Part shown: piece by piece, positions 407-54,050 of the stretch
Position numbering within the stretch: the first letter of the stretch is position 1
Layout: the number at the start of each line of letters is the position of its first letter
Notes under the pieces: generated by a model
Database searches by the model: none
Seen by the model: only the letters and a program-made list of their open reading frames with translations
Told to the model about the DNA's origin: nothing
NCBI GenBank assembly: GCA_021904315.1
Contig: CM038920.1
Span: forward strand, 18,290,001 to 18,354,000
DNA length: 64,000 nucleotides
Direction: 5' to 3'
Source of the DNA: Sphagnum magellanicum
Taxonomy: Eukaryota; Streptophyta; Sphagnopsida; Sphagnales; Sphagnaceae
Position numbers and translations under genes: made by a program

Positions 407-3331
407 TCACCTGTTATCTGCTGTGCCAATAGTGCAATCCCTATCATTGGTGTCACTGCTCAATTGTGACAAGAGAAGCTGATTAAAGTGATCTGGTTCA
501 TCCCACATAGGCCAATGTGAACACTGCCACAACAATGTAACAAATCAAATGTCATTAATACCATATTATTTGTCAAGAGCTCTTTCTATGAATCTGAAGC
601 TTCAGGAAATACCCAAGACTGATAATCTCTAGTACCTTCTGACTACAACTAAAGCAGGCTGTCTCTAACTCCATACTTTTAGAAGCTAGGTGTTTTATTA
701 AAATGACACAGGTTGTTGCTCATTCCAGGATTCATATCAATGAATTCCTTGGATCTGATAGATAAGAAACAAAAAAGAAAGTCAGAGCCAGGACACATCT
801 TCAAAGGATTGGTACAGCAAACTCACTTTTGGGAGGAACATTATGGACATATCTGTTGCAAGAGCTTCAGGGGGCTCTGCCAGTTCATTTATCAAGTATT
901 GATCAGCCTCACCCCAAATGATACCAACAGGCAATTGAGTGCCTGGTTTGGTCCCTGGCTTTTGACCCCACAGCCCCTGATAACCTGCACGATAGTAGTT
1001 GATACTTGCCCGTACTGCACCTTTTTCTGAGAATGCCATCACATGCCTGCCCATTGCAAATACCATACCTAATTTGGTGAGTAGTATTTACTAAAAGACT
1101 TCCACAATAAAACCAGGGTAGACAGAAAAAAGGGGAGGAGGGATCAATGGTCCAAGGAATCTCACCGTTCCACATCAATTGCAGGTTGGGGTTGACAGGG
1201 TCCAAGTTCTAGCACTCTCCTTAAGGTCCTATACCTGCAGCAACCCAAGCTCACTTTCTGCAGTGATAAACAACTCTCTAACTACTCAGGTTCAAAAGGA
1301 GTGAAGCCATTGAAATTGTAGTACCTGCGGCAACTCATAACAAATTCTGGCAGCCAACTCAGCTGGAAAAATACTGCATAAATACAACCCCGAGCTCATC
1401 AAAACAGCATCAATACAACCCATAACTGACCATGTTTGTGGTAGAGACATAGACAGAAGACCTGCTAACCTCAAAGACATTAACTCTTTTGGTTCCCTAG
1501 CCCTTCAAGAACTCAAGAAAATGATGGGAAATCAATCAAGGTCACAAGTTTTCCATTTTGAAAGATTACGTTTCCTATGGCCCACTTTGATATTCCAGAG
1601 CAAAAATTGTGACATTCTGACATGATTACTAGTCATAGAGAAGCTAACATCTTCATTCTCTGGTTTTAAAGTACACTAGACAGCCGAAAAACCAATTAAT
1701 TATGCCTCTTCATCTCATTCTCTGCCTATCTGGTCCTGACCTGTTGCATCTAGTCTCTCAGCCTCACACCCTGGAAAGGGTACCATCTCTGAAATGAGGC
1801 AGCATCTTCTGATGGAAGGGCAGAGATGGATGTCCTCTGCGCCAAGGAATGAACTTGCAAGTGCAATAGACACAAAGTGGGTGAGGAAACTCACAGATAT
1901 ACCAGGTGCGCCACAGTTGCTGAAAATTTGTCCGCATAAGCTGGCCCAACACAGACAAGTGTGCTGAATTGACCACCACTATCTTCGTCAACTTGCTTGG
2001 ATAGTCTTCTGCAAGAGCCCATGCGACTGCCCCACCCCAATCATGCCCTACCTGCACACTACAAACTTCCGCTGATTGAAGTGGCTATAATACTCTTAAA
2101 GCGAGATGCAGAAAATACATCAAAATACTAAAAAACAGTGCTTAACTGGAGAGTAATGTAACAAGAAAAGGAAGAAAGCAAGATGAACAGAAGGTAAGAC
2201 TCCCGCAAACCTTGGAACCCTATGAAAAGAGATCAAATGGACAAATAGAAGCTACACTGACCACTATTGCTCTCTTGCCAGCTCCAAAGTGGTCAATGAT
2301 GCACACAACATCTGACAGCACCGGTTGGCGGCCATAACTTGCCACACCTGTGGGCTTGGAGGAGGTATTGTAGCCTCGCATATCAGGGGCAATTACATGG
2401 AACCCTGCTTCAGCTAATGGTTGAAACTGGTTCTTCCAGACATACCAGAAGTTTGGGAATCCATGTAGCAGTAACACCTGCAAGGAAAACAACAAACAAA
2501 AGAAACCCATTGGGTGAGCTTATGAAATCATTCTTATGGGCTCAGCTGCATGGATGCATTGCTGCTGGTTCTTTCATGGAACAGCATTATGATAGAGAGC
2601 TCCAAGTTTAGGTCATTTCCTGGGTCTTCAGGGGTATCATTTTTCAGCCAACAAATTCAGATACCTACCTTCAAAAAGAAGAAAGGCAGAAGGGTGAAGG
2701 GAAAAAAGAAAGAAAGAGAAGCAAATGTATGTGAGCTGTGTATCTGACCAGATCTCCATCTAACTTCCCACACTCCACATAATGAATCTTAATGTCACCA
2801 TTCAGGATCTCTCCATGTTGAAGTTGACACTCTCCTACGACTTCTTCTTGACCTGCTTCAGCTTGGTTCTCTGTAACAAGTTTTGTTTGAAGCTTCATCT
2901 GAGCAGCAGCAGCAGCAGCAGTGTAGGATCTGGAAAGGGCTACAAAAAGACAAAGATCACATTCCACACACAACAATGTTACTCCAGGTTTCCTCCCCCT
3001 CAAGAACCCTTTTTTCTTCAACCCTCAAGGTTTTCTTCAAGGAGACAATGATATGGAAGAAGAAAACAGGAGTGATTCAAGAAAGAAAAATCAGCAGGTA
3101 TCAGCCACTACTCGAGAGCCATTGATTGTGAATAAGGAGGGGAAAAAAAACAGCAAATTGGAAACGAAACACGCACTCACAGGAGGAGGAGAGTGGTCTA
3201 GCAGGACGACGTGCAGCAGATTTGTGAGAGAAGCGAACGAGACAAGAAGGATGGACAGCAGATCTCTTCAGCATCGGAATTGCACTTGAACATACGGTTG
3301 TCATCGCTCTTCCCATGACAAACCACATCAC
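407..3331 (-). CDS. Epoxide hydrolase, alpha/beta-hydrolase fold, organelle-targeted
   Basis: Eight coding exons join in phase: 3331-3181, 2939-2749, 2477-2262, 2051-1895, 1373-1325, 1234-1166, 1046-827 and 523-407. Translation from the inner Met at 3274 gives 370 residues; from 3331 it gives 389. The start (MLKRSAV, then many Arg and Ser, no acidic residues) looks like a mitochondrial or plastid presequence, and an Ala run follows. In the 370-residue numbering the oxyanion motif is HGFP (100-103), the nucleophile is Asp171 in VGHDWGG, the acid is Asp307 in IIWGEAD, and the base is His335 in CSHW. Cap tyrosines lie at Tyr218 (WYI) and Tyr276/277 (NYYRA). Family knowledge: such enzymes open epoxides to vicinal diols by way of an aspartyl ester. 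The first exon and its start are the least certain parts. All catalytic residues are intact. A broken inverted copy of the last two exons lies at 32.6-33.3 kb. Confidence 0.88.
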
Positions 3332-4160
3332 TTCCTGACCGACCTCTTCTGCAGTTCAGGATTTGCAATCTTGTGACGGCAAGTTGCAATCTTTTGAAAG
3401 AATTTTGTACAAGTTGATTGTTGTTGTGATAAAAAAGGGCATTCTGGTGGTGGAGGGCAACTGATTTTTCACGCGAAGTTTCAAAGGCACGGTATGTGTG
3501 TGTTCTTCTTCGCTCTCAAGACTCAAGAAGCGTTTGTTTCGTTCTTTCAGCATTGGAAGAAGAAAAAGACCGTTCTGTGTTATCTTCTTCAGTTGAAAGA
3601 CACTGAACTCTCTGATTGTGGCAAAGATGGAAGTCACCCATCATCCATTATTGTTGTTGCAGCAGCATGGATGGAACCTCCTGGTTTCAAGAGCCTCCAA
3701 CAAAATCTTATTTTCGCTCAAGGGATGCCAGATCTTTTGTCACTGCAGAACCTTTTGCTAAAAACCAAAAGCACCACTTCACTTCTCAGGTACAGGGTTC
3801 TTCAGCAAGCAAGGAAGTGAGGGTGCATGGGTGTAAAAAATGCTGAAGGAGGTAGTCACGAAGCATGAATGCATCTTGAATCTCTCTCTGTTTGGGGCCA
3901 GGATTTGGATTAGGGTTTATCTGATGCTTTGATTTGATTTGGTGCAATTTGATTTTGCAGTGTAGTTTGTGAGTATTTTGCTTGAGGCCATGCAGCAATT
4001 TCATGGAACAAGCTTCCATTATGTCTTTGCAGTTAGGATCTGTGCAGACTTATTTCGCTTTCTGTCAAACCAAACATTGTTTCACAAGATCTTCTTAGGG
4101 TTTGAAGATGCTCTCATGTAATTGAGATTCCAAAAGCACATATGAAAGCATGACTGATAA
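3332..4160. promoter_or_regulatory. Divergent intergenic region between epoxide hydrolase and PAM16
   Basis: About 830 bases separate the two divergent start codons, so both promoters and 5' leaders must lie here or overlap. An open frame of 108 codons at 3494-3820 on the plus strand resembles nothing I know and is more likely leader or chance sequence. A possible upstream leader exon of PAM16 would sit here: the sequence just before its conserved AGRL start looks like a splice acceptor (GGGTGCAG). No TATA box was assigned with confidence. Confidence 0.45.
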
Positions 4161-49349: not shown

Positions 49350-52300
49350 CTATGAATGGGAGCTGGATGGGTTTGCACGATCTTTCTCCACCAATTCCAT
49401 GCTTACTTTTGGTTCAGATTCCACAATGTCAGACTTACATTGCCCTTGCCCTGCAATTTCTGGTCCAGCAAGCTCCTGCAACTCCTGGAGTGTATTTGGC
49501 AATGCTCCAAGGGCTTTTGGCCAAAGTGAATCATCCTTGAGCATCTGTAGGTACAGAGACAAAAGAATCATCAAACTCTGTGTTGTTGTGAAAGAAAATT
49601 GCACTCAGTTTTTTGCAAACTGGAGTCACTCTCTTAGCTTTCAAAAAGCCACTGGTCATTTGATTTTGCAGTTGGCCACAATTGTCAATTCCAGAACTAG
49701 AGATGTATATGTAAGCAAGAGACAGAGTGGATTGATTTGCAAGTCGTAGTTTGAGTGTTACCCGAATCTGAAGTTCAAGACACTGGACATAGTTGATTGC
49801 CTTCTCAAGCATTGTCACCATATCAACCTGTAAGAAATGCAGGCCCAATTTTACACATTACAATCCTCTACCAGCTTGGTAGCCAAAGTGATGCACTTTT
49901 GTGTCGTAACCAGGGTTATCAACTTTTGAACATACCAGCCTGGTCCTAGTACTGCATACTTTTTAGAATTTTCATACCAGCCCAGTCCTGGTATTGGAAC
50001 CAAGCCTGGTCCTGGTAGTGGGACCAAGACTGATTTTTGGCTGGTATGAGGCAGGTATATACTTGGTATTGAAATTGGAACAAGGCTGGTATTACCTCAG
50101 GTACCTACCAGGCTGATACTGCTACAAGGCCGGTATTGCCTCAGGTCATACCAGACCAGTAGGGTCTGTGATGCCATTGTTGATACCAGACACAGGCCTA
50201 TATACCAGACCAACATTGGTCCTAACCACCTCCTGAACAATAGCAGCTTAATTGGCAAAACAGGCTGAGCATCTGTCTCATGGGTGTTCTATCATTCACA
50301 ATAATCTACTGAGTTTAATGTTGGAACACTTTCAACAGGCTTTTGAGAAGTTCTTCAATGCCAATGGCAGCTACTTGTGTGAAGCTCTTATATTGTCAAT
50401 TCTCTAACCAGATAAATAGGTTCTAGTTCATTATTGCTTTATAGCATTCAACTTCCATCAAGCAGATGTGATGGACAAGAGACAAGAGACAATGCCTAAC
50501 CTTATCCCCATTAGGAATCAAGTTTTGAAGGTACTTGAGTCGCTCAGTTATCCGCTCCCTCCGCACCTGTTACAAATAAAGAAAGCAAATAGTAAAAAAA
50601 CAATCTTTAGATCCTTGGGATAATGACCCTTTCCAAATCTTCAAACTCTTACAGAAAAAGCAATCATAATGAAAGCCTGAAACGCATATATGGAAATATC
50701 AAAGCTGAAACTTCCATGAGTTTAAGTGCCTCTTCCCATCCAAAGGAAAATCCTCCCTGGAACATGCACCTGGCATACTGTGCTAATATGAAGGTGGAAT
50801 CAGGAGTCTGGAAGTTTTACAATTGAGCTCATAAACTTCATAAAAAGTTTCAGGGAGATCTTTACCCGAGCAGCAACGCTTTGTGGATCATTGGCACTGC
50901 CTTGACGTGCCCGAGGTTTCAAATTGGTGTTCAAAGCAGGGCCAAGAGCTCTGCTGCTGCTCCCACTTGCTGTGCTCCGTGAAACTTGCTTGTGTGCTGC
51001 TGTGCTAAGGTACTCAAACCGGCTGCAAGAATCCTGACCACCACCTGACCATGGCATACCTCCAGCTGCTGCTGGCTCCTTTCCTGCATTCTGAAATAGA
51101 ACTTTATGCAGTTTTATTTCAGCAACAGGACAGCTTTCAAGCAGGCCTTGATGAGAATGTAAACTGAGCTTAATAAACTACATTACATCAAGGAAGAAGA
51201 TCTCTACCTGAGCAGCAATAGTTTGCAGATCATTGTTAGCACTGCCTTGATGTGCCAAAGGCTTCATATCAGTGTTAAGAGCAGGGCCAAGAGCCCTGCT
51301 GCTCCCACTTGCTGTGCTCTGTGAAACTTGCTTGTGTGCTATTGTGCTAAGGTATTCGAACCGGCTGCAAGCACCCTGACCTGACCATGGCATACCTCCA
51401 GCTGCTGGCTTCTTTCCTGCATTCTGAAAGCTTCCTTGAAATGCAGCATCCCCTTGCTGAAATAAAACCCCACAACATCCCCCAAAAAAATATTCCTTAG
51501 TCTCTCTTCATGCTTGTCACTGGACAAGAGAGGAAGGGTTTCAATAAAGAAGAGAGTACTGATTCAAGAGAGGAATCTGACCGAGGAGATTGGCCGTTTG
51601 TGTGAATCAATGAAGATGGTGTTCCCAGAGGCAGCAGGAGGACATCTTGGCAGCAGGGCACCCTTCAAAGCAGGTAAGTCTTCTTCTGACTGCATAACAA
51701 TGCTTGTTTTCCCATCCATTCCCCCTCGCAGCCCTGTGTGACCACTGAGCACAGGAGAAACTGGCAATGCAGTGGCAGGCAAGGCAGCAGGGATGCTAGA
51801 CACCCTGGAAGGCCACTTGATCCCTGATGATGCAAGTGCACCTGATTGCTGCTGTAATCCAGCAACATGCTGCTGTCTAGAAGATCCACCCAGTTGATGT
51901 GTAACATCAAAACCCACAGGCACAGCAGTATTGCTCTTGTTTTCAATCCATGCTCTACTACACCCTGCTAAGGCAACATCCTGCTCCTCACCAACAGCAG
52001 CAGCACTACTGACGTAGGGGCCTGGGTTGAAGCTCTTCATCCCTGCGACAATGCTCATCTGTTGCTGCTGCATCTCCCAGCACATGTTGGTCACAGCAGG
52101 TTCATTGCCATTGGGACTGAACCCTAACCCTGTTTCAAAGCTCTTCATGCTGTTCTGTTGCTGCATCTCCCACACATTGCTCACAGCAGCTTTGTTGCCA
52201 CTGGGACTGAACCCTAACCCTGTGTTCAACAACCCTTGAGTCTCAATTGCTCCCACAATGTCAGGAACAACTGGAAGCTGAATCTGCTGCTGTGGTGGAT

Positions 52301-52997
52301 GTTGTTGTAGGTGCAAAAGTCCCTGGATGCCACAATCCTGCGCAGAGTCATCAATTGCATGCATTCCCAGCACACCAGTGGGTTCAACAAACTGGCTACT
52401 GCCCTGGAGAGCTCCAGCTCCAGCAGATGAAGCTTGGAGCAAGAGCTTGTCACACATGATGGAAGCTCCATATGCTGCAGCAGCAGCAGCTATTCCCTTG
52501 CCTGCTGCTTTAGGGAAAGGATTGTTGTATCCCAATTGCAAGGAATTGGAAACCCTGGACATCGATCCTGGTATGTTGTGGTTCGAGTATTGTTCCAAGT
52601 TTTGCATCACCAACTTCTTGTGCATTCGGGAAGCAACTGGAGAGCTGCCATCCGGCCTCTTCCACAAGCCGCCATCGTCAGATGCTCCGCGCACACCGTG
52701 TTGAAGAAGCTCCGAAGAAGAGGGATGGGTGAAATGGATCATACTAGGCTCCTGTTGCCGCTGGAAAGTGCCCGTGTCGACAACAAGAGACGGCGGGGAG
52801 ATGGCATGGATTTCCTCAGCTCTCTGACTCGCATGTAACCAGAACTTGTCGTTCCAGCACGGAAGGAAAGGCGAGGAGGGATCCGCAATGCTCGCATGGT
52901 AGTTATCAGGCACGTTGTTGTACATGAGCGCTTGCTGTAAAGACGATGCTTGTGCCTCCTCATCCGTAACCCCTCGCCAGGACTCCGCATCTTTCAT
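49350..52997 (-). CDS. RSL-like class VIIIc bHLH transcription factor
   Basis: Six coding exons join in phase: 52997-51582, 51456-51208, 51090-50866, 50566-50501, 49827-49762 and 49544-49350, giving 738 residues if all are used. The ATG at 52,997 is the first Met of the long first exon. The basic region is assembled across an intron as DPQSVAARVRRERITERLK. Helix 2 follows as VDMVTMLEKAINYVQCLELQ (653-672), then MLKDDSLWPKALG and a Leu-rich tail. DPQS, RRERI and the LQNLIPNGDKVDM junction are hallmarks of the RHD6/RSL group, whose members drive root-hair and rhizoid growth as nuclear DNA-binding dimers. The first exon is long, low-complexity (Gln, Ala, Ser) and carries an internal duplication. 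Exons 2 and 3 are tandem duplicates, both 3n long and phase 0. The first exon's donor (TCG then GTCAGA at 51,582) is the least certain junction. The Ser/Gln-rich part is likely regulatory, which I infer. Confidence 0.85.
49905..50225. repeat. TACCAG/CTGGTA-rich repeat inside an intron of the RSL-like gene
   Basis: The words ACCAGCCTGGTCCTGGTA, GGCTGGTATTACCTCAGGT and ACCAGACCAGT recur in both orientations over about 320 bases of the intron between the exons ending at 50,501 and starting at 49,827. Many are short palindromes, so the tract could fold locally. It looks like an inserted low-complexity repeat. Confidence 0.75.
50866..51456 (-). repeat. Tandem exon duplication in the RSL-like gene
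   Basis: Exon 2 (51,456-51,208) and exon 3 (51,090-50,866) share the order NAGK, AAGGMPWSG, CSRFEYLST, AHKQVS, STASGS, RALGPALNT, QGSAN. The flanking donors also match (GTAGAGATCT against GTAAAGATCT). Exon 3 ends DPQSVAAR, a proper start to the basic region. Exon 2 ends NDLQTIAAQ, which has lost the Pro and the Arg. Exon 2 also carries ten extra residues at its start (QGDAAFQGSF). The acceptor of exon 3 seems to derive from the sequence CTTTCAGAATGC inside exon 2. Confidence 0.92.
52027..52229 (-). repeat. Internal two-copy duplication in exon 1 of the RSL-like gene
   Basis: TGLGFSPSGNKAAVSNVWEM and TGLGFSPNGNEPAV, followed by a WEMQQQ block and MKSF, are repeated in frame about 100 bases apart. 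Both copies keep the frame open, so the repeat lengthens the disordered region without breaking it. Confidence 0.85.
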
Positions 52998-54050
52998 GAT
53001 CCTCTGTTGTTGTTGCAAGGTTCAAGATTCGAGCTCCCTTTACACCAAAGGTGCGAATCCACCAGAAATTCCCAAACTCGACAAAGTTCCTGCCAGAGCT
53101 TGTCGAGGTTTGTAGCCTGGAGGCCGAAAGAGAAATCAGATACCACACAACTTGAGTGTCGTTTTCTCCATCTTCTTCACCAAAGCCATGTTATGGGATG
53201 GATTTGCGACAGCACAAAAACAAAAAACTCTTGTTGGGAGTTCTTCTTCAGTAGCGTCTGACACACATACTGCTCATCATTCAACCAGTTCGCATCTTGA
53301 AAGCTCTGGCGACGTAATTACCAAACCACAGATTCCCGAACTTCAATGCGAGCGCCATTGACAACCCCCAAAACATACACACTGTTCTTTTCTACAAACC
53401 GCGGGCCCCGAAAAAAGGGAAGCTGCTTTCCCTCCAGGTGAGCTCTCCTCCTCTCTCTTGGTGTGGAAGATTTCCCTCAAGTTGAGCTCTCCTCCTCTTC
53501 CTCCTCCTCCTCCTCCTCCTCTTCTTGGTGTGGAAGCTTTCCCTCAAGTTGAACTCTCCTCCTCCTCCTCTTGCTGTCGACCGACGAAGCTTTTCCCCAA
53601 GTAGACCTCTCCTCCTCTCTCTCTCTCTCTCGCTGGGTGCCGAAGAAGCTTTCCCTCAAGGTTGACGTTTCCTCTTCCTCTTGGTGTCTAAGAAACTTGA
53701 GCTCTCCTCCTCTTGGTGCGGAAGCTGCTTGCTTTCCCTCAAGTTGAGACAGAAGAAAGAAAGAGTGCAAATTGTTGGACAAGGAAAAACCAAAAAACTC
53801 CTCCACACCAACAACTCCCTGACCTCCTCCTCCACTAAAACATCCTTCCTTGTCTCCTCCTCCTCTTCCACCTCCGTCGTGTGCAAGTCACAAACAAATA
53901 TGTCGATTCTCTCAGAAAACACACAAGTAGTTTTAAGGAAGAATATAACAAGTGGATCAGTTGCAGACACTTTACAGTACAAAAAACCACACGTACACAC
54001 ACGAAAAGTTAAGCTGCAGGCCTGCAACAGCAGAGGAGCAGCAAGGTTGT
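52998..54050 (-). promoter_or_regulatory. Probable leader and promoter of the RSL-like gene with long GA tracts
   Basis: On the coding strand about 53,440-53,890 is rich in GAGGAGGAGG and holds a (GA)n run at about 53,613-53,630. Such tracts are common in plant 5' leaders and are known binding sites of BPC/GAGA factors. A phrase CTTTCCCTCAAGTTGAGCTCTCCTC recurs several times between 53,420 and 53,760 with drifting spacers. No TATA box was assigned. Confidence 0.5.

Follow-up and report, generated by a model that had tools for sequence, protein, structure and literature searches.

Gene layout and the duplicated exon

The window, the whole 64,000-nt stretch of Sphagnum magellanicum DNA that was analysed (contig CM038920.1), carries on its minus strand a gene for a bHLH transcription factor (Table 1). 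For the HLH domain (PF00010), with a Pfam cut-off of 20.7 bits, the score was 29.3 bits when the protein was read from exon 3 onward, and it was 27.4 bits when exon 2 was joined to exon 4 and what follows. All five introns of the gene have GT-AG borders, and the exon combinations 1-2-3-4, 1-3-4 and 1-2-4 are all in frame, giving 738, 655 and 663 residues, respectively. Beyond the break point of exon 1, similar sequence follows in this gene and in its paralogues L029 and L030 (VRFLS, VRFLSS and VRSS). Intron 1 measures 125 nt here, as against about 1.1 kb (L030) and 1.5 kb (L029) separating the corresponding coding parts.

Table 1. Features of the bHLH gene and of its intronic inverted repeat, in window coordinates (a slash marks an exon border)
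Feature	Position	Strand	Details
Gene span	ATG 52997, stop 49350	minus	
Exon 1	51582..52997	-	472 codons, ATG to ...HKRPISS, phase 0 end, donor TCG/GTCAGA
Intron 1	51457-51581	-	125 nt, GTCAGA...TTTATTTCAG
Exon 2	51208..51456	-	249 nt, phase 0 both ends; ancestral 5' end (QGD..FQGSFQ)
Intron between exons 2 and 3	51091..51207	-	117 nt, GTAGAG...TCTATTTCAG
Exon 3	50866..51090	-	225 nt, phase 0 both ends; conserved block KPRARQGSANDPQSVAAR
Intron between exons 3 and 4		-	299 nt, GTAAAG...TTTGTAACAG
Exon 4	50501..50566	-	VRRERITERLKYLQNLIPNGDK, remainder of basic region + helix 1
Exon 5	49762..49827	-	helix 2
Exon 6	49350..49544	-	C-terminal part up to stop
Anti-acceptor arm (inverted acceptor + exon 5' end)	51111..51162	-	reverse alignment, 52 nt
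Anti-acceptor core	51111-51125	-	TTGCTGAAATAAAAC
Partner arm: exon 2 acceptor + exon start	51449..51475	-	inverted repeat 27 nt, 81%; MFE fold
Hairpin at exon 3 acceptor	51091..51122	-	inverted repeat, 13-nt arms, 92%

The original prediction held that two neighbouring phase-0 exons of this gene encode versions of the same segment, and our analysis bore this out for the coordinates and lengths of both exons, for the end of exon 1 and for the peptide ends, NDLQTIAAQ in exon 2 and DPQSVAAR in exon 3. The two exons are direct repeats far above chance, with stretches of 86 nt (92% identity) and 68 nt (84%) among the matching pieces, which are spaced 333-345 nt apart. Over 71 aligned codons they differ at 25 nt (11.7%; NG86 dN 0.10, dS 0.22), and since the copies differ by about 12%, a doubling of the assembly is unlikely. 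The gaps in their alignment all have lengths divisible by 3, and exon 2 has 33 nt more than exon 3 at its 5' end. The acceptor of exon 3 may have arisen from an exonic TTTCAG of the ancestral exon, or it may be an intron acceptor brought closer by a 33-nt deletion between TTTCAG repeats, an origin under which 11 of 12 nt match in alignments. As similar neighbouring internal exons of the same phase, the two copies have the form of a mutually exclusive pair. A search for a feature that would bar their joint inclusion found none in the reading frame, which is kept, in the length of the intron between them or in the intron borders, so that exclusivity is not forced by frame.

A protein search of the genome (439-Mb assembly, 31 contigs), in which only the best candidates were scored, recovered at least five paralogues with the same exon series (L029-L033). 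In all five, the duplicated exon is present once and ends in NDPQSIAAR followed by GTA, while in L029 and L030 it begins with QGDSF.G.FQ, nearly the same start as that of exon 2. The ancestral 5' end has therefore been kept by exon 2 and the ancestral 3' end by exon 3, and the altered 3' block of exon 2 is derived. Exons 2 and 3 were joined in the exon tree with a support of 0.937. NG86 dS was 0.39 (L029) and 0.33 (L030) for exon 3, 0.62 and 0.38 for exon 2, and 0.41 between L029 and L030 themselves. Because the exon is single in the five paralogues of the same genome, the duplication seems to be confined to this one of the six genes and to be younger than the nearest paralogue splits. A separate observation is that in L033 (contig C18) the frame of the matching exon, at 3176-3499 on the reverse complement, runs on unbroken into the upstream sequence (438 aa); this gene may lack intron 1.

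We take the hallmarks of RSL, or class VIIIc, genes to be the block KPRARxGSAxDPQS.xAR and introns at AR/xRRxxI, at PNGxK/VD and after LQxQ[VI][KR]; both names, as applied to this gene, rest on that consensus. Block and intron positions are common to the six paralogues and, judged by where their tblastn blocks break, to three more genes with a related block (L048-L050). This block reads GPALNTNGKPRARRGSATDPQSIYAR in L048 and L049 and departs from the consensus in L050 (KPQAQGG). The class VIIIc label of the original prediction is thus plausible, as the preceding block and the tblastn intron positions match three genes that resemble the RSL consensus. In L050 the block lies at 1216-1293 (KPQAQGGSATDPQSIYAR), and this single-copy RSL-like gene lacks two Arg kept by L048 and L049. 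This arrangement is reported in none of the open-access titles listed for RSL genes and for tandem or exclusive exons in plants.

Divergence of the exon 2 basic-region block

The ancestral block, GPALNTNLKPRARQGSANDPQSIAAR, is invariant across the five paralogues except at one Leu/Met site. It is conserved in exon 3, with I to V as the sole change, whereas the degenerate block of exon 2, KPLAHQGSANNDLQTIAAQ, has undergone the changes N to D, R to L, R to H, P to L, S to T and R to Q, together with a Leu-to-Met change and an inserted N. It thereby lacks its three Arg and the Pro of DPQ. Only the Pro and the terminal Arg had been predicted to be missing; two further Arg are also gone (KPRAR to KPLAH). 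The predicted weakening of the basic region at the exon 2 junction agrees with the net charge of the block, which is -1 in exon 2 and +3 in exon 3. A profile search matched MYC2 and MITF, and the Q of exon 2 takes the place of an Arg that aligns with the Arg after E in the MYC2 motif 'AERQRRE'. Among the eight PDB matches of a single-protein search were four designed PPR repeats, which we dropped since each repeat contributed only about 2 bits. The two Arg of VRRERI are encoded by exon 4 and are present in every splice form; because this pair remains, the loss of DNA contact in a form made with exon 2 would be partial.

Of the 39 paralogue-invariant sites, 7 are altered in exon 2 and 3 in exon 3 (p 0.31); within the block the counts are 6 and 1 of 25 sites (p 0.098). 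Moreover, the single-copy L050 has KPQAQ for KPRAR, and losing those two Arg is therefore not peculiar to a duplicated exon. Polarised changes comprised 10 nonsynonymous and 5 synonymous ones in exon 2, and 5 nonsynonymous and 0 synonymous ones in exon 3, where one lies in a Leu codon with the residue unchanged; 5 between-copy differences were left unpolarised. The polarised substitutions of exon 2 were not distinguishable from neutral (P 0.25-0.43). Purifying selection on this exon was considered and set aside, as neither these neutrality tests nor the comparison of invariant sites gave it support. Since its changes fit neutrality, exon 2 may be unused. The exon is free of stops, and those gaps that we assign to it are all multiples of 3, which suggests that it is or was translated; a stop-free neutral copy is expected in 0.50-0.61 of simulations, and at least one of the 3-nt gaps falls within an AGC run.

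An inverted acceptor copy and its predicted pairing

The intron between the two exon copies holds, reverse-complemented, GTTTTATTTCAG joined across the splice border to CAACAGGACAGCTTTCAAG, which correspond to the acceptor of exon 2 (acceptor 2) and the ancestral exon start. The core of this anti-acceptor matches acceptor 2 at 15 of 15 nt and the acceptor of exon 3 (acceptor 3) at 11 of 12 nt. Local alignment of the inverted arm scored 38 against acceptor 2, 39 against L029 and 40 against L030, with 0 of 1000 shuffles as good in each case, and blastn of the region gave reverse-orientation matches to the acceptors of L030 (25 nt, 92%) and L029 (39 nt, 79%). The mirror copy contains GGACAGCTTTCAAG, identical to L030 at that place, where exon 2 has GGATGCTGCATTTCAAG instead; because the mirror copy equals L030 and not exon 2, exon 2 probably changed after the inverted copying. 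The duplication event probably left the piece behind as a scar, by fold-back or template switching, so that its origin would not lie in regulation. When 125 nt covering the intron were searched against the genome, the self-match alone was returned, at a sensitivity blind to short or common matches, so that even the paralogue acceptors were missed. Part of the intron also matches 13 nt of intron 1 of L029 (0 of 200 shuffles as good), either by chance or perhaps as a remnant of the L029-type intron.

The segment from acceptor 2 to acceptor 3 (51085-51480) was predicted to fold at -141.3 kcal/mol (z -4.0, 0 of 100 shuffles as stable), with a minimum-free-energy stem that pairs acceptor 2 with the anti-acceptor and places exon 2 in the loop. 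Control folds of paralogues gave z values of +1.64 (L029), -1.13 (L030) and +1.22 (L033), and the stretch beginning at acceptor 3 gave -1.4. When the 52-nt arm alone was shuffled, the excess stability was gone (mean -118, best -127 of 60). The duplex of the arm with acceptor 2 was calculated at -47.6 kcal/mol, compared with a mean of -23.9 and a best value of -44.0 among 1000 shuffles. In short-flank folds acceptor 2 is not difficult to open (rank 7 and 8 of 22), and any effect of the stem therefore depends on long-range pairing alone. A similar layout is known from exons Ab and 3 of U2AF1, which are likewise duplicated exons with inverted repeats that could loop one of them out (PMC5224494). 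There, however, mutation of the repeats upstream of the duplicated exons had no effect on splicing, so that long-range stems need not form during splicing; the stem described here is a predicted one.

The original prediction envisaged alternating use of exons 2 and 3, with one product that binds DNA (1-3-4) and another that dimerises but has weak DNA contact (1-2-4), and the anti-acceptor offers a conceivable means, by competing pairing, for such alternation. Both forms are in frame, and the core can pair with acceptor 2 or with acceptor 3 but never with both together. By sequence, an equally good match to acceptor 3 arose in only 7 of 1000 shuffled introns. By energy, however, the duplex with acceptor 3 (-28.8 kcal/mol) was equalled by 66 of 1000 shuffled arms. 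We folded the competition in six pre-mRNA contexts at two temperatures, and the core paired more strongly with acceptor 2 in 11 of these 12 settings, acceptor 3 winning only in the context 51700-50567 at 22 C. The hairpin at acceptor 3 draws on the same core and hence competes for it; it folds at -10.2 kcal/mol at 37 C and at -15.2 kcal/mol at 20 C and is not an outlier among acceptors, nor is the opening cost of acceptor 3, which ranks 19 of 22 when flanks of 40 nt are included and 15 of 22 when they are 75 nt long. Masking of acceptor 3 by this hairpin was rejected as a candidate on the opening cost and the shuffled-arm energies, notwithstanding the rarer match by sequence; in local folds most of acceptor 3 is paired (near 1.0), but so is much of acceptor 2 and of the L029 acceptor. 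Overall, the predicted structures favour the skipping of exon 2, which is the reverse of what a weak isoform requires. Given in addition that joint inclusion of both exons is in frame, we regard their use in turn as improbable. What stands of the original proposal is the duplication, the frame-neutral alternatives and the weakened junction; a sign that exon 2 replaces exon 3 did not emerge, and little favours such a replacement, as it is exon 2, and not exon 3, that lies in the loop of the most stable RNA structure predicted.

The same stem, lying over the acceptor of exon 2, would also suit a dead exon, sealed by the stem, always skipped and persisting as a fossil of the duplication, and substitutions consistent with neutrality agree with this. 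The open frame, the in-frame gaps and the retained GT donor and AG acceptor speak against it, and we give such a fossil little credence.

Candidate readings of exon use and related systems

The reading that we tentatively place first, although we hold it with somewhat less than even confidence, is that the basic region comes from exon 3, whereas exon 2 serves as an in-frame insert that is optional and whose inclusion is lowered by the stem. It would begin with a young tandem duplication, within one RSL-like gene, of the exon that precedes the intron interrupting the bHLH basic region. In most transcripts, if not all, the basic region would then be encoded by exon 3, with exon 2 included optionally to yield the forms 1-3-4 and 1-2-3-4, while the stem between acceptor 2 and the anti-acceptor would enclose exon 2 and reduce its inclusion. 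Decay of the exon 2 block is expected if exon 3 supplies that function. Against this reading, the commonest form of alternative splicing in plants is described as intron retention, not exon skipping (PMC6581706).

Alternatively, the exons might always be spliced serially (1-2-3-4), in which case about 80 residues of linker would have been gained before an intact basic region, exon 2 would be a neutral spacer and the stem would be irrelevant. The GT-AG borders and phase 0 of both exons accord with this, as do their complementary losses, of the 5' end in exon 3 and of the basic block in exon 2, which fit joint use. In-frame growth, furthermore, seems tolerated in this gene, as exon 1 contains a second in-frame tandem duplication. 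The strong stem predicted over acceptor 2 argues against constant inclusion, and we consider serial splicing unlikely, if still worth keeping in view. The duplication in exon 1 (52051-52229) has a period of 90 nt and 1.9 copies, seen as two GLGFSPxGN...WEMQQQ units; read by eye, this unit is single in the matching parts of L029 and L030.

A more far-reaching idea is that one mutational event, in doubling the exon and folding back an antisense copy of its splice site, created a docker-selector switch between DNA-binding and contact-poor isoforms; of all the readings put forward here, this is the one we would credit least. Docker-selector structures are known from the insect genes Dscam and srp, and Ivanov and Pervouchine derive the arrangement from tandem duplication (PMC6071210), a resemblance that would also favour the use of exons 2 and 3 in turn. 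As in those systems, tandem exon copies are present here and their acceptor regions can compete for one complementary element. The element at this locus differs in being an inverted acceptor copy and in lying between the exons, one of the two pairings is weak, and the arrangement was seen in one gene of one genome.

Among bHLH genes, the nearest likeness is the animal gene E2A/TCF3, in which mutually exclusive exons encode the bHLH region of E12 and E47 (PMC5852603). Both are cases of adjacent alternative exons of a bHLH gene that differ in DNA-contact sequence. In E2A/TCF3 the bHLH itself lies on the alternative exons, and descriptions exist of both proteins, whereas in the present gene the duplication covers just the N-terminal part of the basic region and the use of exon 2 is putative. 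Arabidopsis MAF1/FLM is a plant transcription factor gene in which alternative neighbouring exons join a constitutive exon to form a motif (PMC3266260); it differs in belonging to the MADS family and in having expression evidence, exon use being deduced from sequence in our case. In Arabidopsis, candidate exclusive exons have also been predicted in a survey (PMC3923563).

The unusual feature of the locus is that the anti-acceptor is an inverted copy of the very splice site that it faces. The route from tandem exon duplication to alternative splicing is an open question, for which one proposal (PMC6071210) has the duplication copy a single arm of an RNA stem. The present locus hints at a different route, in which an inverted splice-site copy is left by the duplication itself. 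As the event is young and its paralogues are single-copy, the states before and after duplication can be compared within one plant, and the gene may show how a bHLH exon copy sheds basic residues when a second copy is at hand.

Two repeat-rich stretches lie elsewhere in the gene region. Within the 673-nt intron separating exons 4 and 5, a 24-nt repeat occurs twice (49985-50032) in what appears by eye to be a wider stretch rich in CTGGTA/CCAG. Upstream of the ATG, at 53400-53650, there is a GA-rich low-complexity stretch, perhaps part of the promoter or the 5' UTR.
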